A stretch of 20,299 bases of DNA from the IMG/VR virus record IMGVR_UViG_3300010354_000888, positions 1-20,299 of that record; one strand, 5' to 3'. Below, piece after piece: positions 20 through 19,237 of the stretch. The stretch comes from a virus. Each line of letters begins with the position of its first letter. Positions within the stretch are counted from its first letter, which is position 1. Both the position numbers and the translations under genes were made by a program. The notes under the pieces are model-generated. The model saw only the letters and a list, made by a program, of their open reading frames with translations, had not been told where the DNA came from and did no database searches.

Positions 20-748
20 ATGCCAGAGCTCCCCTTCCTTGCGGCGCCGACGCGTCGCACCCAGCTGGTCACGGCGACGATCGGAGAGGACACCTACAGC
101 CTGGAGTTCCCGGTCTACAGCTCCCTGCGGGCCGGCGAAGAAATCCAAATCCGTGACAGCGACTACCAGGCCGCCGTCTACCGGGAGAGCAGCCACCTCG
201 CTGACGCCCTGGTGGCTGAAGGCACCGAAGAGACGGAGGCACAGCGCCTGGCGATCCGTTGCCTCTCGACACGGCTGGGGATCCCTGTGCCACTGGAGGC
301 TGCCGAACAGCGCATCCTCCTGCGCCATGCTGACCTGGTGGCCCGGATCCAGGCGACGCTATCGGCCGAGTACGCGCAGCAGGTCCGGCGGACCGTGACG
401 GCCCTCATCGCCCACCGCCTGCCCGGTTGCCGGGACTGGACTGAGGCGGACACCGATGCCAAGGTGCCCGGCCCCCTGCGAGACGCGATCGCCGCCTTCG
501 CCGATCAGGAGCGCAACGCCAACCAGCCGCAGCGCACGCCGGAGGAGCTGGTCGAAACCATGGTCGAGACGCTGGGAAAGCTCGGGCCAATGGCGGCCGA
601 CTCCCAGAGCCCACCGACTGGGGAGCCCTCTACTGGCGCTGTCGAGAGCTCTGGCCCGATGCTCCCGAGTTCAGCCCCGAGCGATTCGCCAGCCTCACCA
701 CGGCCTACATCCTCCAGGCGATCGAAGAAGGCACTCGGCGCCGCCTGA
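20..748 (+). CDS. Tail assembly chaperone, short (G-like) product
   Basis: This 242-residue protein is the zero-frame product of a two-frame gene. By analogy with lambda gpG it would act in the cytoplasm, binding the tape measure protein and recruiting tail tube subunits. What is seen: a soluble protein with a beta-rich N-terminus (residues 1-60), a helical middle (about 60-185), and a low-complexity Pro/Ser-rich tail (about 190-242) ending in Arg/Lys. That tail lies exactly where the second frame is also open, as expected when one frame of an overlap is constrained by the other. The slippery site falls at codons 185-187. The ATG at 20 is the first start in the window; no good Shine-Dalgarno sequence precedes it. 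The assignment rests on the frameshift layout and on nearness to the tail tube and tape measure genes, not on a recognised sequence family. Confidence 0.75.
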   Translation: MPELPFLAAPTRRTQLVTATIGEDTYSLEFPVYSSLRAGEEIQIRDSDYQAAVYRESSHLADALVAEGTEETEAQRLAIRCLSTRLGIPVPLEAAEQRILLRHADLVARIQATLSAEYAQQVRRTVTALIAHRLPGCRDWTEADTDAKVPGPLRDAIAAFADQERNANQPQRTPEELVETMVETLGKLGPMAADSQSPPTGEPSTGAVESSGPMLPSSAPSDSPASPRPTSSRRSKKALGAA

Positions 749-1242
749 GCCAGCTTCACGACGCAGAGCGGCCCATCGCCTGGCTGCATCAGACCCTCAT
801 TGCGGTCAATGCCACCGAACGCAGCTCCGTGCCGTCGGTCGACGACCTGTGCCTCTACCGCGTCCGCGAGCCCGACGAAGCGCCACCGGCAGAAGCCGGC
901 GCGGCGATGCTGGCGCTCATCGCCCAGCGGCAGTTCCCCGGCTGGGCGCTCTGCTTCTACGAGGCGCTCGAAACCTCCGGCCGTGGCCAGCCTGCCCCGC
1001 CAACCCTGGCCCTGGTGGCTGACGATGCGATCCTGCTGGCGCCGAGATTCACGCCGGGCGGCTGGACGGGCTTCCTGATCGCAGAGGGTCCGGCAGCGGG
1101 TCAGCCTCGGGCGTTTCATTCGCCGGAGCAACCGGAGGTTGTGACCTGGCTAGCTGTTCCCGTCGCGCCTGAGCCAGGCGCAGTGTGGGCGGCGGCAGCT
1201 GCATCTCTGCCCACTCTGCCGCCTCCCGATAGACCCGATTGA
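20..1242 (+). CDS. Tail assembly chaperone, long (GT-like) -1 frameshift product
   Basis: A -1 slip at 574-580 joins the first 187 codons of the upstream gene to a second frame read from 580 to the stop at 1240-1242, giving about 407 residues. The second frame has no stop from 445 to 1242. It has no ATG, GTG or TTG between 580 and the GTG at 829, so its protein-like stretch at 601-828 (Trp- and Leu-rich helices such as DWGALYW and YILQAIEEGTRRRL) cannot be made by independent initiation at a common start. In lambda the T domain of gpGT contacts the tail tube protein while G binds the tape measure; the same division is inferred here. The C-terminal segment (residues about 270-407) looks folded, with motifs such as QFPGWALCFYEAL. 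The last 194 bases overlap the antisense AP2 gene. An independent product starting at GTG 829 is a less likely alternative. Confidence 0.72.
574..580 (+). promoter_or_regulatory. Programmed -1 frameshift slippery heptamer GGGAAAG
   Basis: In the zero frame the bases read G GGA AAG, fitting the X XXY YYZ rule, and this is the heptamer known from the lambda G/GT junction. It lies inside the region where both frames are open (445-748). After the slip, reading continues from 580 as Ala-Arg-Ala and reaches the well-formed second domain. Confidence 0.82.
582..659 (+). other. Possible stimulatory RNA structure after the slippery site
   Basis: TCGGGCCA (582-589) is perfectly complementary to TGGCCCGA (652-659), and an inner stem CTCCC/GGGAG (601-605 with 621-625) lies in the loop. 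The outer stem starts one base after the heptamer, closer than the usual 5-9 base spacing. It would have to be partly melted at the moment of slippage, and its role is uncertain. Confidence 0.35.
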
Positions 1243-1381
1243 CGGCTAGTTCAGCCTCTAGGACGCTGCGGAAGTAGCCGAGCGAGTAGCGGCGCCCACC
1301 CCACCAGACACGGGCCTGGAAGGGCCTGCGTGGATTGGCCTGCGGGACGAAGGACACCCCGCGGGGATAGGCGCCTGACAC
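1049..1381 (-). CDS. Small AP2-domain DNA-binding protein, antisense
   Basis: A 110-residue minus-strand protein. Residues about 7-55 fit the AP2/ERF DNA-binding fold: a GVSF opening, the strand FQARVWWGGRRYSLGYF, then the helix EAELAVNRVYREAA. This matches the family pattern of W/F-x-A-R, GK/R-x-x-x-LG-x-F and E-A-A-x-A-Y. Such domains occur in plants and also in cyanobacterial and phage proteins, often beside HNH homing endonucleases; no HNH motif is visible here. The rest (residues 58-110) is a Pro/Ala/Arg-rich tail. The start is a GTG at 1381; no ATG exists before the in-frame stop upstream, and no clear Shine-Dalgarno sequence is present. The gene lies mainly in the gap between chaperone and tail tube, with its 3' 194 bases antisense to the chaperone end. 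It could be a regulator, a remnant of a homing element, or no longer expressed. Confidence 0.68.
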   Translation of the reverse strand: MSGAYPRGVSFVPQANPRRPFQARVWWGGRRYSLGYFRSVLEAELAVNRVYREAAEWAEMQLPPPTLRLAQARREQLARSQPPVAPANETPEADPLPDPLRSGSPSSRPA

Positions 1382-1486: not shown

Positions 1487-2317
1487 ATGGCGCAGGTCTA
1501 TTCGCAGGCCTACGGCTACAACTTCTACATGCAGCTCATCAAGAAAGATGCGCTGGATTTCGCTGATCTGAACCTCGGTGGCCTTGGTGCCGGGAAGTTC
1601 ATGGACATCAGCACCCTGGCCAGCAACAGTGCCGCTGTGACCAAGGTGGGCACCGTCGCGACTCTCGGCATCGGCTTTGGCACCAACAAGGCCACCACGA
1701 AGGCCGCGCTGGCCTCCAACGTCGTCACGCTCACCTTTGCTGCTGCGCACGGCTTCACGGTCGGTCAGACCATCGTGGTGTCCGGCTTCACCGGCGCCTT
1801 TGCTGGCATCAACGGCAAGGCCACGGTCGCCAGCGTGACCACCAGCAGCCCCTTCACTCTGACCTACGCGCTGACGGCTGCCAACATCGCCGAGGCGTCT
1901 GTAGTGGGCTCCGTGCTGCCGGCCCTGGCCCTGGACGGCACCGACACCCCCATCCGCCTGCTGGGCCTCACCAACGCCGCCCCGCAGGAGGGTGAGAACG
2001 AGGAAACCGTCGTCACCTACGACGACGAGGCGAAGTCGTTCGACACCTCCATTGCCACCAGCAAGAGCTTCAGCTGGACCCTGGAGGGCGTGACCGATCA
2101 CAGTGATGCGGCCTACAAGCTGCTGCGCCTAGCATCGAAGGAATCGGTCCGCGAGGGCCTGATGATCAAGTACGCCCGCGTCGGCCCTGTCGGCAAGACG
2201 GAGACCACGTTCGGCTTCGGTCGCATCACCGGCTTCAACGAGACCCCGCCTGCTGGTGGGATCGTGAAGTGGAGCTCTGGCATCAAGGCCTACGGCCCCT
2301 ACGAGCTGGAGTTCTGA
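1487..2317 (+). CDS. Major tail tube protein with inserted domain
   Basis: A 276-residue protein proposed to form the rings of the tail tube around the tape measure. The start at 1487 is preferred over an in-frame GTG at 1385 because AGGA (1476-1479) sits 7 bases upstream and the extra N-terminus would be unlike the mature protein. The C-terminal half (residues 145-276) looks like a tail tube fold, with the strand-rich stretch FDTSIATSKSFSWTLEGVTD and the ending IKAYGPYELEF. Residues about 62-143 appear to be an insertion, with the pattern VVTLTFAAAHGFTVGQTIVV seen in small beta modules (FCCH-like, HGF-x-x-GQ) found in many phage virion proteins. Such an insertion would probably decorate the outside of the tail. 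The position, two genes before the tape measure, supports the role. Confidence 0.78.
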   Translation: MAQVYSQAYGYNFYMQLIKKDALDFADLNLGGLGAGKFMDISTLASNSAAVTKVGTVATLGIGFGTNKATTKAALASNVVTLTFAAAHGFTVGQTIVVSGFTGAFAGINGKATVASVTTSSPFTLTYALTAANIAEASVVGSVLPALALDGTDTPIRLLGLTNAAPQEGENEETVVTYDDEAKSFDTSIATSKSFSWTLEGVTDHSDAAYKLLRLASKESVREGLMIKYARVGPVGKTETTFGFGRITGFNETPPAGGIVKWSSGIKAYGPYELEF

Positions 2318-2580: not shown

Positions 2581-3009
2581 ATGACCCTCCCCGCCACCGC
2601 CCAGGCCATCTACGACCTCCTGGTGGCCGATGCGGTCATCTCCCAGGGCCTCGGCACCTACACCTTCACCGACGGCGCGCAGATTCCCGCCATCGCGGTG
2701 TTGTTCGCCGGGGAGCACCTGCCGCCCGGCACCACGGTCGAGGGGGTGGAGGTGACCATCACGGCCCTGCCCAACGGCTACGGGCCGCAGCTCACCTACA
2801 GCAGCACGATCCTGAACCCCACCTGGCGGATCTACATCGCCGGCTGGCAGTCGGCCGCCACCCTGCAGGCCATGGCGCAGCGGATCATCGCCCTCCTGCC
2901 CGGCGCCACTGCAACACCGCTGCAGGGTGATCCGCCGGGTGAGGGGATCGGCGTTATTGATCAGGTCGTCGTGGCCTGGACCAATCCGACCCTATCTGTG
3001 GAGGCCTGA
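2581..3009 (+). CDS. Small tail protein, possible tail terminator/completion protein
   Basis: A 142-residue protein located just before the tape measure gene. The N-terminal helix (TAQAIYDLLVADAVI), following strands, a second helix near residues 92-107 (ATLQAMAQRIIALLP) and a closing strand (IDQVVVAWTNPTLSVEA) give an alpha/beta layout and length similar to siphovirus tail terminator (gpU-like) proteins, which cap the tail tube at its neck end. This is inference from shape and position; I do not see a diagnostic motif. The start at 2581 is chosen because the protein-like sequence begins there; an in-frame ATG at 2410 would add a stretch that is antisense to the minus-strand gene and looks non-coding. 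A GAGGG directly before the ATG is too close for a standard ribosome site, while a GGGGGAGG lies about 19 bases upstream. Confidence 0.6.
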   Translation: MTLPATAQAIYDLLVADAVISQGLGTYTFTDGAQIPAIAVLFAGEHLPPGTTVEGVEVTITALPNGYGPQLTYSSTILNPTWRIYIAGWQSAATLQAMAQRIIALLPGATATPLQGDPPGEGIGVIDQVVVAWTNPTLSVEA

Positions 3010-3012
3010 TTC

Positions 3013-6000
3013 ATGGCTGACTACACCGTCACGCTTGATGCTGACTTCAGTCAGGTCCTTGCCGGGTTCGCGAAGGTCGGCCAGACCGCCAAGCAGACCG
3101 GCGATCAGATGGGGAAGGGCCTCAGCGATGGCCTGACCACCGCCAACGCCAACATCGACGCCCTGAAGGCGCAGATCCGGTCCCTGGTAGCCACCCGCGC
3201 CACCTTCAAGGTGGACTCGGCGGAGTTCAAGACCGCGCAGCAGCAGATCGACCTGCTGCAGGGCAAGCTGGCCCAGGCCCGCGGCGAGCGGCTCCGGCTG
3301 CAGGTGGATGCGTCGGCGGTGGGGGCGGCGGCGGGTGAGCTGAAGAGGCTCGGGGATGCCGGCAAGCAGGTGGGACAGGGCGGGGTCGCGCTCAAGGTTG
3401 AGACCCCAGGCCTGCCGGAAAGCACCGACGGCTTCCGCCTCCTCGATGGCGTTGTGCAAGGGGTGGCGTTCAGCCTGTCGAACTCGGTTGTCAATGCGGC
3501 GGGTGCTGCATTCCAGGCGCTGCAGTCGGTCGTCACTCAGTACGCCGCGCTTGATACCGAGCTGCGCAAGGCTGCCGCCGCCAGTGGCGAGGCCGGCGCC
3601 TACGGCGAGCTGGCAGCAATCGTCGATCAGGTCGGCATCGACGCAGCCGGCACCACTCAGGAGGTCGCGCAGCTGGTCACCGAGCTGTCCCGCTCCGGCA
3701 TGACCGTCGATCAGGTCAAGGGCAGCCTCGCGGCGATCGTTCGCGGTGCCGAAGCGACCGGCACCAGCTTCGACCGAATGGGGTCAATCGTGGCCGCCAC
3801 CCTTAAGCAGTTCGGCCTGCCGGCATCACAGGCGACCCGCGTGGTGGATGCCCTGACCCAGGGCGCCAACGCTTCCGCAGCCAGCGTGGAGGGCCTCGGC
3901 TACGCCTTCAAGTACGCCGGTCCGGTGGCGAAGACCTTGGGCCTGTCGGTTGAGGATCTCGGCGTCGCGGTTGGCCTGTTGACCAACGCCGGCATCGACG
4001 CCTCAGAGGCTGGCGTCACCCTGCGGAATGGCCTCTCGAAGCTGGCCAGCGCTGCACCATCAACCGGCAGCGGGGTGCAGAAGCTCTCGGGGCAGGCTGC
4101 GGAAGCCGCCAGGGCGATGAAGACCCTCGGCGTGGACATCTACAACGCCGACGGGACACTTAAGCCCATGCGGCAGACCCTGCTGGCACTTAAGGGCGCA
4201 TTCGACAAGTTGGGACCGGCCGCGAAGATCCGCCTGGCATCGAGCATGTTCGGCGGGGAGGATGACGGGACGAAGTGGGTCGCTCTGCTGGATCAGAGCA
4301 CCACGGAGATCAACAAGATGGCCGATGCGATGGCCAACACCCGCGGCGCCACGGATCGCAACCGCGACGCCATGCAGGGCTTCGAGCTGAAGCTGAAGCA
4401 GCTGGACGGCACCCTCGGCAGCATCGGTAACACCTTCGGCAAGGTCGCAGCCGGCGCGCTAATGCCCCTGCTGGACGCGGCCAACGCCGTCATCGGTGTG
4501 ATCTCCGGCATGCCGGGCCCCGTCAAGGACACCGCCGCCGCGTTCATCCTGCTATCTGGTGGTGTGGCTGCAGCGACGGCAGCTGTGGTGATCTATCAGC
4601 GCGTGATGGCGTCCGCGATCGGACAGAAGGCCATCGCCGAGATCATCGCGCTCGGTGGTGCATTCCGCGTCGCGCTCGCCGGTGGCATCAAGGCCGCTAT
4701 CGCCAACTTCCCGGCCCTGCTTGGTGGCCTGGCGACGCTGGCGCTGCGGATCGGCTATGTCGTGGTGGCCTACGAAACCTTTCGAGCCATCACCGGTGCA
4801 TCCGATCGCGTCGGGAAGGGATTCAACGAGCGAATCAAGGAAACACAGAAGGCGCTTGATAGCGTCACGCCAGCAGCGGAGAGGGCATCAGGCGCGATCA
4901 GTGGCATTGGCAAAGGCGACAACCGCAACCTTCTGCAACTGCTCAACTTCGTTGAGAACTTTTCTCGTGCCGCCGACCTGAACACCATCCGGGGACAAAC
5001 GGAGCAACTGCAAAGCGCATTCACCGGCGTTCAGCAGCAAGCGCTCAAGACCTTTGAGGCCCTGAAGACCGCCACCAGCCTGACCGGTGAGCAGCGGAAA
5101 GACATCAACGACCGCATCAATGCTCTCAAGGTTGTCAAGGAACAGGCCGATTCACAGGCCAAGGCCTACAGGGACTTGGCGGACGAATACCGCGCCGCCG
5201 GCAAGAACGACATGGCGGAGATTGCCAACCGCAACGCCAACGCCATGCAGGTTGAGGTGGACACTTCCACCCGGCTGATCGCTGGCCTGCAGGGCATCCA
5301 GGTCCGCACCGAAGGCGTCAACGCCGTCACATCACAGGCGGTCAGCCTGACGGAGCAGCTCACGGCGGCCACCAGGGAGCGGATCCAGGCAGAGCAAGCC
5401 GTCGGGGGACTTGATGGCCGGTTGGCCGCTGGTCAGGCCCTGCTGGGCGTCACCCAGGCGATCGGAGAGGCTGAACAGGCCCGGTTCAGCATCACGAAAG
5501 CGGGGCTGGAGCTGGAGCTGAAGCAAGCTCAGGCCCGTGGCGCCGGGGAGGGTCAGCTGGAGGCCATTCGGCTCCGCATCGCTGCCAGTGATCGCGAGGC
5601 CCTCACCGCGCGATTCCGTGCCCTGGTGCGAGAGCAGGAGCTGCAGCGGTCCCTGCTGGCGCTGGAGCAGGAGAAGGCGCGGATCCAGGCCAATCAGGAG
5701 CTGAGCAGCGCCAGGGCTGATCGGCTGCAGGCAGAGGTTGAGCTAAGCAAGGCCGCCAGCGAGGAGGAGAAGCGCAAGATCAGCCTGCAGATCGAGGGCA
5801 TTGATGCGCAGATCACCGGCCGAGAGCGGGCCCTGGCCCTCCTCAACCAGACCCAGCCCCTGGAGCGCAAGGCCGCTGACCTGCAGGCCCAGACCGCACG
5901 CGCAGGCCTCCAGTCACAGGCGGCACAGGACGGCTACCGCATCGCCACCAATGGCTCCCTGGTGGCCATCAATGCCGTGGCGCAACGGCAGCAGCGCGTG

Positions 6001-7263
6001 GCGGAGTTGACAGAGGTCTCCCGGCGCGTCGAGCGCGAGGTGAGCCAGCAGCGGCTGAGCAACGCCGAGGCCCTCTCGGCCGCGCTGCAGGCCATCGGTG
6101 GGCTGGAGCAGAGCCGCTTCGACGTAGTCCGCTCCGGCCTGGAGTTCGAGCTGCAGAAGGCGCAGGAGCGCGGCGCCAGTGAGCAGGAGCTGGGGGCCCT
6201 GAAGGCGCGCATCGCCCAGCAGGACCGCGCCGCGATGGATGCCCGCTATCAGCAGCTGCAGCGCGAGCAGGAGCTGGAGCTGGCGATCCTGGCGATCAAG
6301 CAGCGGCAGCAGGCCCTCGAAGCTCAGCGGGCCGTGGCGGTGTCAGAAATAGACCTACGGGCGGCGCGAGCTGTACTGAGGGGGGCGCTTGCAAAGGGCG
6401 ACGCCAACGCGATCGACGCCGCTGAGGCCTTGGAGGCTAAGCAGCAGATCCTCCTCCAGGGCGAGCGGGAGAAACTCAGCCTCACCCTGCAGGGGCAGTC
6501 TGCTGAGCGCGCTGCGGTCCTGCTGCGGCAAGGTGCTGCCGACAACGCCATCCGGGCTGAGCAGGCGGCCAAGGGGTACGCCGTCGCACAGGAGAACAGC
6601 GGCGCTGCATCGCAAGCGATCCTGGCCGTCAACCAGTCGATCGCTGGCGTCCTGCAGGGGAACGCCGCCCTGGCCGGTCGCGCCATGCAAGACACCCAGT
6701 CAGCACAGCTCTACGTCGGGCAGGCCGCTGATGGCTCCATCGTCATCGCCAACAACCTCGGTGATGCGTCCGCCGCGGCAAGCAGCATCAAAGACCTTGA
6801 CCTGGCCGGCAAGTTCTCCGCCGTTGCATCCAGCATGGGCCAAGCCGCCACTCAGGCGCAGGCGTTCTACAGCTCGCTGAAGGCAGCCGCTGCCCTCCCT
6901 GGCGCCCGCTGGTCTGGTGGTCCGGTCGAGGCAGGCCAGGAATACCGGATCAACGAGCTGGGGCAGGAGGCCTTCCTCTCTGCAGGCCGCCTCAGCCTGA
7001 TCGATGCCCCGGCAAACAGCATCTGGCGCGCGCCGTCGCCTGGCGTCGTGATCCCCGCCGGTGTCACGGCACGCCTGCAGGCTCAGGGCCGCGCGCCGGT
7101 CGCCGTGAGCGGGGCCGGTGGCGGGGCCGGCGTGGCAGAGCTGGCAATCGAGGTCGGAAAACTCAGACAGGAGGTCGGCAACCTGGCCCGCCGCGACTGG
7201 TCGGTTCACGTTCAGCAGCGCACGGGGCCCACAGGTGCTCAGGTCCTCCGCCGCCTCCTCTGA
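3013..7263 (+). CDS. Tail tape measure protein (TP901 type)
   Basis: A 1416-residue protein that sets tail length and is thought to pass out of the tail during DNA entry. Residues about 165-400 match the TP901 tape measure domain, with helices such as ASVEGLGYAFKYAGPVAKTL and SEAGVTLRNGLSKLASA. Residues about 483-593 are strongly hydrophobic with several membrane-like segments, usual for the family and relevant to membrane penetration. Residues about 600-1230 are Gln/Ala/Glu-rich coiled coil, including a tandem duplication of about 211-214 residues. The C-terminus carries the common GGPVEAGQEYRINELGQEAF motif of phage tape measures. The start has a good Shine-Dalgarno sequence, GGAGG at 3000-3004, 8 bases before the ATG and inside the end of the upstream gene, which suggests coupling. 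By the rough rule of 1.5 angstroms per residue, the tail would be near 200 nm. Confidence 0.95.
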   Translation: MADYTVTLDADFSQVLAGFAKVGQTAKQTGDQMGKGLSDGLTTANANIDALKAQIRSLVATRATFKVDSAEFKTAQQQIDLLQGKLAQARGERLRLQVDASAVGAAAGELKRLGDAGKQVGQGGVALKVETPGLPESTDGFRLLDGVVQGVAFSLSNSVVNAAGAAFQALQSVVTQYAALDTELRKAAAASGEAGAYGELAAIVDQVGIDAAGTTQEVAQLVTELSRSGMTVDQVKGSLAAIVRGAEATGTSFDRMGSIVAATLKQFGLPASQATRVVDALTQGANASAASVEGLGYAFKYAGPVAKTLGLSVEDLGVAVGLLTNAGIDASEAGVTLRNGLSKLASAAPSTGSGVQKLSGQAAEAARAMKTLGVDIYNADGTLKPMRQTLLALKGAFDKLGPAAKIRLASSMFGGEDDGTKWVALLDQSTTEINKMADAMANTRGATDRNRDAMQGFELKLKQLDGTLGSIGNTFGKVAAGALMPLLDAANAVIGVISGMPGPVKDTAAAFILLSGGVAAATAAVVIYQRVMASAIGQKAIAEIIALGGAFRVALAGGIKAAIANFPALLGGLATLALRIGYVVVAYETFRAITGASDRVGKGFNERIKETQKALDSVTPAAERASGAISGIGKGDNRNLLQLLNFVENFSRAADLNTIRGQTEQLQSAFTGVQQQALKTFEALKTATSLTGEQRKDINDRINALKVVKEQADSQAKAYRDLADEYRAAGKNDMAEIANRNANAMQVEVDTSTRLIAGLQGIQVRTEGVNAVTSQAVSLTEQLTAATRERIQAEQAVGGLDGRLAAGQALLGVTQAIGEAEQARFSITKAGLELELKQAQARGAGEGQLEAIRLRIAASDREALTARFRALVREQELQRSLLALEQEKARIQANQELSSARADRLQAEVELSKAASEEEKRKISLQIEGIDAQITGRERALALLNQTQPLERKAADLQAQTARAGLQSQAAQDGYRIATNGSLVAINAVAQRQQRVAELTEVSRRVEREVSQQRLSNAEALSAALQAIGGLEQSRFDVVRSGLEFELQKAQERGASEQELGALKARIAQQDRAAMDARYQQLQREQELELAILAIKQRQQALEAQRAVAVSEIDLRAARAVLRGALAKGDANAIDAAEALEAKQQILLQGEREKLSLTLQGQSAERAAVLLRQGAADNAIRAEQAAKGYAVAQENSGAASQAILAVNQSIAGVLQGNAALAGRAMQDTQSAQLYVGQAADGSIVIANNLGDASAAASSIKDLDLAGKFSAVASSMGQAATQAQAFYSSLKAAAALPGARWSGGPVEAGQEYRINELGQEAFLSAGRLSLIDAPANSIWRAPSPGVVIPAGVTARLQAQGRAPVAVSGAGGGAGVAELAIEVGKLRQEVGNLARRDWSVHVQQRTGPTGAQVLRRLL
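5429..6690 (+). repeat. Tandem duplication inside the tape measure gene
   Basis: Two diverged copies, roughly 5429-6060 and 6064-6690, encode similar coiled-coil segments. Matching points include AIGEAEQARF (from 5458) with AIGGLEQSRF (from 6091), the ELELKQAQARGA and EFELQKAQERGA segments, REQELQRSLLALEQ with REQELELAILAIKQ, and GYRIA (5932) with GYAVA (6574). The spacing grows from 633 to 642 bases along the copies, always a multiple of three. Confidence 0.8.
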
Positions 7264-13726: not shown

Positions 13727-14497
13727 ATGCGTTTCCCCCACCCCTGGCCCACTGTTGACGCCAATCCTCCTGGTGAGATCGACGGCGGCGGTGCTGCACC
13801 GGAAGACACGGCCACCAATGGCGACGACAACGCCGACGAACTGACCAAGCTGCGCAAGCTGGCTGAGAACCTACGAGAGGAGGCCCGTCGTGAGCGGAGC
13901 CGTGCACAGGCGGCACAAGCTCAACTCAAGGAGATCGGAGACGCCAACCCGAAGGTCCTCGAAGAGGCTCAGCGCCGGGCCGAGAAAGCGGAGCAGGATC
14001 GCCTACTGGCCGAAGAGCGGGCGAACCTCAAGATCCAGCAGATGCAGAAGCAGCTGGAAGACAAGACCGCGAAGGTGCTCAGTGAGGCCCAGACCCGCGC
14101 CCAGGCGGCCGAACGCGAGGCCCTGCGCGTCAAGGCAGAGCGGGACTTTCTTGCTGCTGATGGCCTACTGGAAGCCTCCAGCGTCGATGGCCGCACGCCG
14201 TTCGATTACGTCTGGCTGTTGCATGGCGACCGGATCGCGGAAGACACTAGCGGCCGCTACATCAAGGACGAAAACGGCCTGCCACTGCTGGATCCAGAGA
14301 CTAACAAGCGGGTCACCGTAAAGGATTTCTTCTCCAAGCTCCGCGACGATCCCGTGCATGGGATCCACTTCAAGCCCCGCTATGGCTCCGGCGGTGGTGC
14401 CCGCGGTGGCTTCGACGGCCGCGTCAGCAGCGGACAGGATCTGTCGCGCCTGAGCACTGCTGAGAAGTTTCAGGTGGCCTTCGGCCGCAAGTCCTGA
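13727..14497 (+). CDS. Capsid scaffolding protein
   Basis: A 256-residue protein that probably guides major capsid protein assembly and is then lost. Residues 1-38 are acidic, Gly/Pro-rich and disordered. Residues about 38-145 are a long charged coiled coil (LRKLAENLREEARRERSRAQ, then further Glu/Lys/Arg/Gln-rich heptads). Residues about 145-215 are a compact domain with TPFDYVWLLHGDRIAED and TVKDFFSKLRDDP. A Gly-rich linker (GSGGGARGGFDG) leads to a C-terminal helix, LSTAEKFQVAFGRK, which may bind the capsid protein. The layout and the position directly before the major capsid gene are typical of scaffolds in phages with HK97-fold capsids. No protease motif is visible. There is no strong Shine-Dalgarno sequence. 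Confidence 0.8.
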   Translation: MRFPHPWPTVDANPPGEIDGGGAAPEDTATNGDDNADELTKLRKLAENLREEARRERSRAQAAQAQLKEIGDANPKVLEEAQRRAEKAEQDRLLAEERANLKIQQMQKQLEDKTAKVLSEAQTRAQAAEREALRVKAERDFLAADGLLEASSVDGRTPFDYVWLLHGDRIAEDTSGRYIKDENGLPLLDPETNKRVTVKDFFSKLRDDPVHGIHFKPRYGSGGGARGGFDGRVSSGQDLSRLSTAEKFQVAFGRKS

Positions 14498-14519
14498 GCA
14501 AGCCGTGCCCGTGGCTTGC
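14498..14519 (+). other. Hairpin in the leader of the capsid gene
   Basis: GCAAGCC (14498-14504) pairs perfectly with GGCTTGC (14513-14519) around an 8-base loop, just after the scaffold stop. No T tract follows. The 111-base gap to the capsid gene is the longest gap between same-strand neighbours in this part of the window and also contains TGGCG/CGCCA around TGA. A message-processing or stability role is possible; no convincing promoter was found. Confidence 0.4.
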
Positions 14520-14608
14520 GGCTGCGGGCAACTTGCGGCGATACGGGGAAGCGTGATGCACCCCAGCTGGCGTGACGCCACCGAAACCAACACCCCAATT
14601 CTCTACCA

Positions 14609-15529
14609 ATGGGACTGACTCTTCTGGAGGCGGCCAAGTCGGAGCGTGATCCGGCCCGTCTCGCCGTTATCTCCGAACTCTCCGAGGGTGACCTGATGGG
14701 CGTCGTGCCCTTTCAGGACATCGAAGGCGAAGGCGTCTTCTACGACCAGGAAGGCGAGCTGCCGGCCGTCGGCTTCCGTGGCATCAACGAAACCCTTGAG
14801 GCCACCTATGGGGTGATGAATCCCCAGGCCGAGAAGCTGAAGATCATGGGTGCGGAGGTCGATGTAGACACCGCCATCATCGACATGCGTGGCCCTCAGG
14901 CTGTCGCCGATCAGGTGCGCATGAAGGTCCGCTCCCTGCGGATGACCTTCGAGGATCAGTTTATCAACGGTGACGAGAGCACCAATCCTCGCGCCTTCGA
15001 TGGCCTGCGTCGTCGCATCAATACCGGCAGCTCCCAGGCGATCAGCATGGGTGGCGCTCTGTCGCTCTCCGCACAGGATGAGCTGATCGACGCCTGTGAC
15101 GCGATGGGTGGTCAGAAGTATCTGATCATGAACAAGAAAATGCGTCGGCGCCTCAACACCGCCAGCCGCAACTCCTCCATCGGTGGATTCATCAACTACA
15201 CCCTGGATGAGTTCGGGCGTCGCGTGACCCAGTACGGCGACGTGCCGATCATCGTGACGGACGTCAACGCACAGAATCAGCCGATTCAGCCCTTCACCGA
15301 AGTATCGAGCTCCACCAGTATCTATTGCGTGGCATTCGGTGATCTGCTCACCACCGCCATTCAAGGCCGCGCCCGTGGCCAGTTCGGTGTCAGCGTGCGG
15401 CAGCTCGGCGAAGTGTCGGATGCACCGGTCGATCGCACCCGCATCGAGTGGTACTGCGGCATGGCTGTCTACAACGGCCGATCTGCTGCCCGCCTGACCG
15501 GCGTGACTGACGCGGCCGTGGTGGCCTGA
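14609..15529 (+). CDS. Major capsid protein (HK97-like fold)
   Basis: A 306-residue protein proposed to form the icosahedral shell. Features fitting this family are the N-terminal arm (LLEAAKSERDPARLAVISEL), the acidic E-loop-like segment EGEGVFYDQEGELPAVGFRG, the spine-helix region AVADQVRMKVRSLRMTFEDQ followed by FINGDES, and the A-domain stretch QKYLIMNKKMRRRLNTASRN with VTQYGDVPIIVTDV. The fold was not computed, but the phrase pattern FEDQFINGD...FDGLRRRI is typical of capsid proteins in this size class. It follows a scaffold gene and precedes a small accessory gene. The ATG at 14609 has no Shine-Dalgarno sequence, which is notable for a protein needed in large amounts. Confidence 0.85.
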   Translation: MGLTLLEAAKSERDPARLAVISELSEGDLMGVVPFQDIEGEGVFYDQEGELPAVGFRGINETLEATYGVMNPQAEKLKIMGAEVDVDTAIIDMRGPQAVADQVRMKVRSLRMTFEDQFINGDESTNPRAFDGLRRRINTGSSQAISMGGALSLSAQDELIDACDAMGGQKYLIMNKKMRRRLNTASRNSSIGGFINYTLDEFGRRVTQYGDVPIIVTDVNAQNQPIQPFTEVSSSTSIYCVAFGDLLTTAIQGRARGQFGVSVRQLGEVSDAPVDRTRIEWYCGMAVYNGRSAARLTGVTDAAVVA

Positions 15530-16238: not shown

Positions 16239-16586
16239 ATGGCACGGATCCAGCCTGGCACCTACACCCTGCGCATCCCTCAGCGAGCAACGCTTGAGGA
16301 GTCGTTGACGCTGAAGGCTGGTGGCCAGCCTGTGAACCTGACCGGCTATACGGTGTTGGCTCAGGTTTGGCGCGACGAAAAGCGCCGGCTCAAGCTGGCA
16401 GACCTGACCGTGACGTATGTCAATCGCGCGACGGGCAGCATCAAACTGTCACTCACGCGCGCGCAGACACGGCTGATTACTAGGAGCGGATTCTGGGACT
16501 TGCTGGTGATTGAGCCGGACGGGGAAGCGGATTACTGGCTGGAGGGTCCGGCCGTGCTTGATGTTGGCCTGACGGACGATCAATGA
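16239..16586 (+). CDS. Small beta-rich fibre-associated protein
   Basis: A 115-residue protein with regular strands: [48 protein letters not shown] and [20 protein letters not shown]. The plan, an unstructured start then an immunoglobulin-like sandwich with the phrase VNLTGYT, resembles the N-terminal domain of baseplate upper proteins (BppU-like) that anchor fibres. This is inference from motif style. The stop overlaps the next start (ATGA at 16583-16586), so it is coupled to the tail fibre gene and probably attaches that fibre to the tail tip. Confidence 0.62.
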
Positions 16587-19237
16587 GCAACCAGGTTGAG
16601 GTCGTTGTCAACGCCGCCAGCGTCCCGACAACCGTTGAACTGACAGCACCTGGACCGCAGGGGCCACCTGGGCCGGCGGGCGCCACTGGGGCGCAGGGCC
16701 CGCAGGGTATTGCAGGTCCCCAAGGCCCCGCTGGCGCAACCGGCGCCACTGGTCCGCAGGGTCCATCGGGCGTCATCACTGCCACGGCTCCGGCCACCTA
16801 CGACGCCGGGACGAAGGCCGTCGGCGTCGCCGTCGGCACCACGGCAGGCACAGCGGCGGCTGGTGATGACAGCAGGTTTGCGGAACTCAAGGCCAGGCTT
16901 GACGCCTTCCGTGATGCGACTTGTTTCTATGTCTCAAAGCGCATCACCGCAAGCGACAGCAATAACGGCACAAGCGAGGGTGAACCATTCCTGACGATCG
17001 GCGCCGCAGTGGCAGCAGCCAATGCCTACGTCACTGCTAACCCTGGTGCTCGGGCTCGAATCAAGGTTGGGCCGGGCCGGTTCGTAGAGAGTTCCCTGCC
17101 ATTCAGGACCAAGCCTGACATTCTGGTCAAGGGAGCCAGTCAGCGAGGCACGGTGATTGAGCCGGCCAGTGGTCAAGAACTCAACGGGTTCTTTGCTCTG
17201 GACTCCGGTTGCATGGTGGCTGACTTCCGCTTTGCGGGCCACCAGGCAACCGATACCAGCTCGACAGACTCAACAGTCGGAACCAGGGCCTGGGCGGTGC
17301 GCCTGAACGAGCTGGCAAATGGCGGGCAGGGCGTGATCCTGACCGCCAGCCCCTACATCAAAGACTGCGCCAGCATCACCGCTGAGGACGACGCGGGCCT
17401 GGGCGGCAGCACCAGCACCGGCGACACCGGCGGCGGTGTGCTGGTGGATGGTGCAGCATGCCATCCGACCAGCCCGCTGCGGTCCATCCTCTGCTACGGC
17501 TTCACCCAGCAGAACCTCGGGGGCCCCGGTTGCGTTGTGCGGAACGACGCCTATGCCGAGCTGGTGTCTTTCTTCGGCTTGTTCGGCACTTGGCATGTCC
17601 AGTGCGAGACCGGCGGCCAGGCGACGCTCAGCGGCGGTGGTGCCAGTGAGTTCGGCATCTATGGCCTGGTGGCCGACGGCTACAGCGGCACAGCGCTCTA
17701 CACCGGCTCTCTCCGTGTCGCTGCGTCTAGCGGTGCCACCACCGTCGATGTGGTCAGCCTGTCGGCGAACCGCTTGGGCTCCAGCAGCCGGCCCGCGCCG
17801 GGGCAGATCATGCTGCTCGGTGGCAATCCCTACGTCGTCCAATCCAGCAGCCCGATCGATGCCACCGGCAGCGTGGTGGCCGATACGGCGCCGACCCGGG
17901 CGGGCTACCGAGTGAGCTTCTACAACCCGAGCGGCACCGGCCTGGCGGGCAACGTGGCGCAGGGTGCAACGGCCGACTTCCGGCAGCGGTCGCAGATCAG
18001 CGCCGGCTGTCACTCGGCGAACTACGTCGGCAGCGGCACCAACTACTCGGCGCTGCCCTGGAACGGCGGCGTTCCGATCCGTGGCAATGAAGCGGTCGAA
18101 CGGAATCTCGGTCGCGTGTTCGGCCTGATCGTCAACGACGTGGGCGATGTGCGCATTGCCGGCGGCGCGTTCGCGGTGGACGGGACAACCGGCGCGGTCA
18201 CGATCAACACCAACCAGTTCAACCTGTCCGGCCTCAACGCCATCGGGCCGTTCAGCCGGAACGGTGGCGCCTCGACTGTCGGCGTGCAGCTGCAGGAGGT
18301 GAGCAACAGTGCCTCGCTGCTGGCCAGCACCGGCACCAGCGACGGCAACACCGCGCCAACCCAGTTCGCGGTCAGGACCTACGCGGACGGTCGGTTCCTG
18401 GCGGGGCTGACGGCAACCGCGGGGCAGCCACTGACGGTCAGCGACACCAGCACGCAGGACGGCGCGGGGTTCTGGACCCGCAGCCGGAACATCGAGCTGT
18501 CGCTGAACGCGCCGAACGGGCTCGCGCGACTGGACGGCTCCGGGCTGATCCCGGCGGCGCTGCTGCCGTCCTATGTGGACGATGTGCTGGAGTTCGCGAA
18601 TCTGGCGGCGTTTCCGGCAACGGGCGAGAGCGGGAAAATCTACGTCGCCCGCGACAACGGCAAAACCTACCGCTGGAGCGGCAGCGCTTACATCGAGATC
18701 AGCGCCAGCCCCGGCAGTACAGACGCAGTGCCCGAGGGCAGCGTCAACCTGTATTTCAGCCAGGCCCGCGCCAGGCAGTCGATCAGCGCTAGCGGCTCGC
18801 TGGCCTACGACTCGGCCACGGGCGTCATCAGCTACACCGCGCCGACCCTGGCCAGCGTGGCACTCTCCGGCGCCTACTCCGATCTGGGCGGCCGGCCCAC
18901 ATTGGGAACCGCTGCCGCTCTGAACGTCGGCACCGGCGCTGGCAACGTGGTGCAGCTGGACGGCGCCGGCCGACTGCCGGCGATCGACGGCTCTCAGCTG
19001 ACGAACATGGCCTCGCTGGTTGGTCCGCAGGGCCCAGCCGGCCCCACTGGCCCGACTGGCGCCACGGGCCCACAAGGTCCAGCCGGGCCTGCAGGGCCAG
19101 GCGTGCCGACGGGCGGCACCATTGGGCAGGTGCTCACGAAGCTCAGCGCGACCAACTACGACACTGCATGGCAAACGTCGACTGGCGGCAGCTCCTCCCC
19201 CGGCGCAAATCTTTTCCTGAATATCACCAGCATCTGA
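16583..19237 (+). CDS. Tail fibre with collagen-like segments and beta-helix
   Basis: An 884-residue protein likely to form a trimeric fibre for host contact. Residues 1-23 are a short attachment region. Residues 24-63 are 13 Gly-X-Y triplets (collagen-like). Residues about 110-220 begin with [20 protein letters not shown], an entry motif of right-handed beta-helix proteins, and the body to about residue 640 is Gly/Ser/Thr/Asn-rich repeating strand. Residues about 650-720 carry a widespread phage fibre module ([40 protein letters not shown]). Residues about 735-810 repeat a second module ([20 protein letters not shown]). Residues 814-840 are a second collagen-like run, followed by [20 protein letters not shown], another common fibre phrase. 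No catalytic glycanase residues can be assigned by eye. A long open frame on the other strand is a compositional shadow. Confidence 0.85.
16652..16768 (+). repeat. Collagen-like Gly-X-Y run, N-terminal
   Basis: Thirteen unbroken Gly-X-Y triplets rich in Pro, Ala, Thr and Gln, for example [15 protein letters not shown]. In phage fibres such runs form triple helices that join domains and hold trimers together. Confidence 0.9.
19022..19102 (+). repeat. Collagen-like Gly-X-Y run, C-terminal
   Basis: Nine Gly-X-Y triplets ([16 protein letters not shown] and so on) near the C-terminus of the fibre. The composition is similar to that of the N-terminal run. Confidence 0.9.

Follow-up and report, generated by a model that had tools for sequence, protein, structure and literature searches.

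Gene content at the locus

The window, by which we mean the whole stretch of DNA that was analyzed, is a GC-rich IMG/VR virus record of 20,299 bases (IMGVR_UViG_3300010354_000888). Its first gene is a cassette in which two reading frames overlap at a slippery heptamer, and genes of a tail module follow. The features of the cassette and its neighborhood are as follows.

20..748, plus strand: zero-frame ORF (ATG at 20, stop at 748, 242 amino acids), encoding a putative G-like chaperone
445..748, plus strand: stretch open in both the zero and the -1 frame, without significance when taken alone
574..580, plus strand: slippery heptamer G GGA AAG in zero-frame phase, with GGA from 575
580..1242, plus strand: -1-frame half, T-like, 220 amino acids, with a helical part and then a C-terminal beta domain
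1049..1381, minus strand: HNH-related ORF with similarity to the C-terminal portion of HNH endonucleases (phrog_99, E 2.5e-5)
1487..2317, plus strand: major tail protein gene, the downstream neighbor of the cassette, whose homologues match tail-protein phrogs
2581..3009, plus strand: conserved tail-module gene (gp2581), function not assigned
3013..7263, plus strand: tape measure protein gene

A preliminary description of this DNA, made from the letters alone, had reported two frames open together from 445 to 748, a GGGAAAG in zero-frame phase at 574-580 and 83 codons without a usual start past that site. All three statements were confirmed. The -1 frame stays open over positions 445-1242, the GGA codon of the heptamer starts at 575, and the first ATG, GTG or TTG of the -1 frame after the heptamer is the GTG at 829. 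Within the zero-frame ORF, residues 1-187, which extend to the slip site, constitute a conserved domain, and the last 55 amino acids past the site form a low-complexity readthrough tail.

Homologues of the downstream neighbor match phrog_38654 (tail protein) in 16 of 16 cases and phrog_1407 (major tail protein) in 8 of 16, with a best E value of 1.3e-10 for the latter. In relatives, a gene of the tail completion/Neck1 type lies upstream of the cassette, and every locus that is long enough has the order neck-type gene, cassette, major tail gene, tape measure gene. The cassette precedes the major tail gene and does not lie between the major tail and tape measure genes. In PSS2 (phage P-SS2), the major tail gene (ORF 076) stands directly before the tape measure gene (ORF 077), and the cassette is found some 18 kb upstream. 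No other frameshift cassette is seen between the window's major tail and tape measure genes, and gp2581 abuts the latter. The gp2581 gene follows the major tail gene in the window's group of relatives, and its homologue in the S-CBS2/S-CRES group resides between the cassette and the major tail gene. In PSS2 the homologue is ORF 066, a virion protein encoded directly after the cassette.

The minus-strand ORF at 1049-1381 appears AP2-like by eye and shares about 190 bases with the final part of the T half. It is conserved in the window's group, with up to 78% identity (locus L012), and S-CBS2 and the S-CRES phages carry a full HNH gene at the same place and in the same orientation. Between the major tail gene and gp2581, the minus strand has a small ORF (2317-2553) that lacks a family match and is conserved in L012 (81%), L002, L021, L032 and L035. 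Scaffold-like and major capsid genes at 13727-15529 lie downstream of the tail genes; thus, the head and tail modules on the window fragment are swapped in comparison with lambda. Farther along, a long ORF (16583-19237) has collagen-like Gly-X-Y stretches at both ends and probably encodes a tail fiber.

Conservation of the slippery site

Neither the overlap nor the heptamer is remarkable when the window is considered in isolation. If the codons of the zero-frame ORF are shuffled, a -1 run as long as the observed one or longer arises in 51% of shuffles. Because about half of the shuffles match it, the double-open stretch is no evidence by itself, and we rejected it as a significant signal in this GC-rich DNA. 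Similarly, 1.7 copies of GGGAAAG are expected by chance in the window, and one copy is unremarkable. In-phase XXXYYY is rare: among the 5,982 codon positions of the CDSs in the window, 2 carry it, and GGA accounts for 35 of the 595 glycine codons in its genes. Support for the cassette is comparative: it comes from retention of the heptamer across loci, and not from the openness of the frames.

Relatives of the -1 half were found in IMG/VR and in the isolates S-CBS2, S-CRES1, S-CRES2, S-CRES3 and PSS2. Where the two overlapping frames join, the overlap contains exactly one in-phase canonical heptamer of the form X XXY YYZ in 85 of 86 loci, the window included. Clustering of the 86 loci at 85% identity yielded 33 lineages, which carry GGGAAAG (24 lineages), AAAAAAG (8) or GGGAAAA (1). 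The occurrence of three heptamer types indicates that slipperiness has been kept, rather than one sequence. The only locus without a canonical heptamer is L014, a close relative of L012 and L013, which has GGAAAAG at around 1346-1376 and a zero frame that closes early. GGAAAA belongs to the "twofour" type among the -1 motifs listed by the authors of PRFect (PMC10274946), and the L014 site may therefore still slip.

The preliminary description had proposed that relatives be checked for both frames and the heptamer. Both are kept, with L014 as the sole exception; it alone retains the two frames without a canonical heptamer. A single continuous frame was not seen at the cassette among the loci examined, and the two-frame layout is present in every locus inspected. 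A search for a conserved stimulatory RNA structure (stem-loop or pseudoknot) 3' of the heptamer revealed none, with a mean z of about -0.3 for 60-base windows in the 33 lineages.

The arrangement also extends beyond the loci from which these counts were made. A profile built from the -1 halves alone was run over 386 cyanobacterial genomes and produced, beyond a MAG that was already known, five loci in four genomes (L176, L177, L178, L180 and L179). In each of the five, an upstream frame in the right phase joins the T-like frame at a slippery site. These sites are GGGAAAC, GGGAAAG, GGGAAAA, GGGAAAA and, in L179, CCCAAAA/AAAAAAA. L179 is the most degraded of the cyanobacterial loci, with stops that interrupt the T match. 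In the four intact loci, a motif of the LPFK-x-x-P type opens the upstream frame, as it does in the window's family. One of the cyanobacterial copies lies inside a contig of more than 5 Mb (G383), which suggests that these distant copies are prophages.

The tail modules of PSS2, S-CBS2 and S-CRES1-3 have the same cassette, slippery site and neighbors as the window. In the deposited records of these phages, the cassette is annotated as two separate ORFs, with T beginning at an internal start. The S-CRES records apply the label "tail assembly protein" to the T half only. The S-CBS2 record calls both cassette ORFs "hypothetical" and labels gp13, gp14 and gp18-gp20 as structural. That automated annotation would split or miss such a family had been anticipated from the window's letters, and these records bear this out.

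Folds and families of the two halves

AlphaFold models of both halves were built on alignments of 29 relatives, with three named-phage rows left out. Residues 1-187 of G are modeled with a mean pLDDT of 92 as a beta hairpin followed by helices. The T half (220 residues, mean pLDDT 90) is modeled with helices to residue 134 and a six-strand region at 144-210. The pTM of the T model is 0.60, which leaves less certainty about how its two parts pack together.

Both models were compared with the PDB by using Foldseek and VIA-align, and nothing credible or significant was found among the solved structures compared. Structure prediction, which the preliminary description had suggested for both domains, hence gave confident models without a significant match to a solved structure. 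In a viral library, the G model is matched by UniProt A0A346A5Z9 (probability 1.00, E 0.022) and the T model by A0A346A600 (probability 0.47, E 1.1). The accession numbers are adjacent, and the two proteins are perhaps products of neighboring genes of one phage.

Sequence searches gave a faint functional link for one half of the cassette. All 33 T halves match phrog_34388 (best E 1.4e-102), a family that is listed without a function and that names neither the frameshift nor the upstream half. PF06223 (Phage_tail_T, the family of lambda T) matches 5 of the 33 T halves, with E values up to 0.1. The best of these matches, that of PSS2 (E 6.4e-4), scores 20.5 bits, below the curated cut-off of 25.9 bits, and the window's own T half is not matched by PF06223. 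Faint and below the cut-off as it is, PF06223 constitutes the only functional link of the cassette by sequence. A T profile found nothing among the sequences of solved structures and no direct lambda T homology among single lambda proteins. The lambda-T relatives in IMG/VR are too close to lambda for a useful profile.

The G domain has no TAC family match in Pfam or PHROGs, and a G profile detected no homology to lambda G among single lambda proteins. When run against the sequences of solved structures, the G profile matched only repeat proteins of the TAL effector type over ~40 residues, which we judged to be chance. An NCBIfam search also returned nothing. The preliminary description had seen no likeness to lambda G or T by eye. 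This holds for G, which has no detectable homology, but the T half is faintly linked to lambda T through PF06223.

Function of the cassette

We interpret the cassette as a frameshift cassette for tail assembly chaperones in a siphovirus related to cyanophages, with a probability of roughly 93%; slippage and partner binding are predicted features of this reading. The chaperone role is suggested by the position of the cassette, its frameshift architecture and the absence of its products from P-SS2 virions. In P-SS2, the two halves of the cassette are ORF 064 (34537-35211) and ORF 065 (35232-35765). The published virion proteome table, which gives the ORFs with peptides detected in purified virions, lists ORFs 061-063 and 066-069, and not ORF 064 or 065 (PMC2784084). 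A chaperone would be expected to be missing from the mature virion, as these two ORFs are; the observation concerns one relative and, as a non-detection, is weak negative evidence. Virions of lambda also lack gpG and gpGT (PMC5009743). The P-SS2 paper nowhere mentions a frameshift (PMC2784084).

Most ribosomes that start at the ATG at 20 would continue to the stop at 748 and produce a G-like protein. At G GGA AAG (574-580), a minority would move back by a single base; their product, read in the -1 frame as far as 1242, would be a G-T fusion of 407 residues. Such slippage would take place without detectable help from a downstream RNA structure. If the products act like those of lambda (PMC5009743), the G part would coat the tape measure protein, and the T part would recruit the major tail protein to it. 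Both G and G-T would then leave before the virion is completed. The sequences themselves establish the two-frame architecture, the conserved heptamer, the change of selected frame at the heptamer and the tail gene neighborhood; slippage, its rate and the partners bound by G and T are inferred.

The frameshift could be real and programmed and yet serve another step of assembly. G and G-T would then act, for example, in neck formation or head-tail joining and not as chaperones of the tape measure protein. Such a role is conceivable because the cassette comes after a neck-type gene and before the major tail gene. It would suit a cassette that adjoins a gene of the tail completion/Neck1 type and, in PSS2, is 18 kb from the tape measure gene, and whose products combine a G half lacking a TAC family match with a T half bearing a large extra beta domain. 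It fits less well with the PF06223 link, faint though this is, with cassette ORFs that are missing from P-SS2 virions and with the lack of a second frameshift cassette between the major tail and tape measure genes. On balance, we consider this role improbable.

Divergence among relatives bears on which frame is coding. Upstream of the heptamer, third positions of the zero frame show the greatest divergence in each of the 14 lineage pairs. Directly after it, -1-frame third positions are the most divergent in each of the nine pairs in which the frames still overlap. If the zero-frame tail mattered, the first positions of the -1 frame would be expected to be the most variable after the heptamer, but they are not. 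S-CBS2 and S-CRES1, two AAAAAAG lineages, lack this tail because their heptamer is immediately followed by a stop codon. The switch of third-position divergence at the heptamer indicates that coding passes to the -1 frame at the heptamer. Judged by these patterns of divergence, this frame is a genuine half of a gene, in agreement with the earlier claim that it encodes a protein-like domain.

These patterns, together with the absence of a start near the junction in the window, make it very improbable that the T half is a separate gene, translationally coupled to G from its own start within the overlap, with the heptamer being incidental. Deposited annotations do begin the T half at internal codons, and start codons closer to the junction occur by chance in some relatives. 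However, the first usual start in the window lies 83 codons into the conserved domain, and the conserved residues W19, P26, F31, L39 and Y43 all precede it. Furthermore, selection on the -1 frame begins right at the heptamer, and 85 of 86 loci keep the heptamer in phase. A sequencing or assembly error, by which an indel would have split one gene, is suggested by nothing beyond the split itself and is excluded, because complete isolate genomes, many independent metagenome contigs and cyanobacterial genomes all show this division together with an in-phase heptamer.

The cassette resembles lambda G/GT in encoding a zero-frame protein and a -1 fusion, in its tail gene neighborhood and in the weak match to the T family in relatives (PF06223); lambda G/T carries the identical heptamer, GGGAAAG. 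The two systems also differ. The T-like half has 205-231 amino acids compared with 144 for the annotated lambda T ORF, and it carries an additional beta domain at its C terminus. Many lineages, unlike lambda, have a zero frame that stays open for some 39-63 codons past the site. The lambda cassette resides between V and H, whereas the cassette described here is upstream of the major tail gene. The preliminary description had called it a lambda-type cassette; the frameshift architecture and conserved heptamer uphold that name, but the gene position does not. Because the position differs and the T-family match is below threshold, we file it as a variant frameshifted tail chaperone and do not assign it to the lambda T family. 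Most of the testable defining features of the lambda G/GT system are nevertheless present, and by analogy the cassette may work in the same way.

Tail assembly chaperones are hard to spot by sequence, and a -1 slip site is therefore often the best handle on them. In this case, the slip site links two genes that are labeled "hypothetical" in marine cyanophages sequenced long ago, so that they form one predicted product, and phrog_34388 would gain a function as the putative T half of a chaperone. The published P-SS2 virion proteome agrees with this assignment. The locus shows that such a cassette can lie outside the interval from the major tail gene to the tape measure gene, and annotators who restrict their search to the place it has in lambda would overlook it. 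More tentatively, cyanobacterial phages and their kin might share a large unrecognized family of frameshifted tail chaperones encoded upstream of the major tail gene. The beta domain of T could give the fusion an extra contact, such as a dock on the tail tube or neck, and tail initiation would be organized differently from that of lambda; we regard this extended proposal as possible but rather doubtful. The frameshift trick itself is known from lambda, and the family that appears to use it here is very different and was previously unrecognized in sequenced marine cyanophages.
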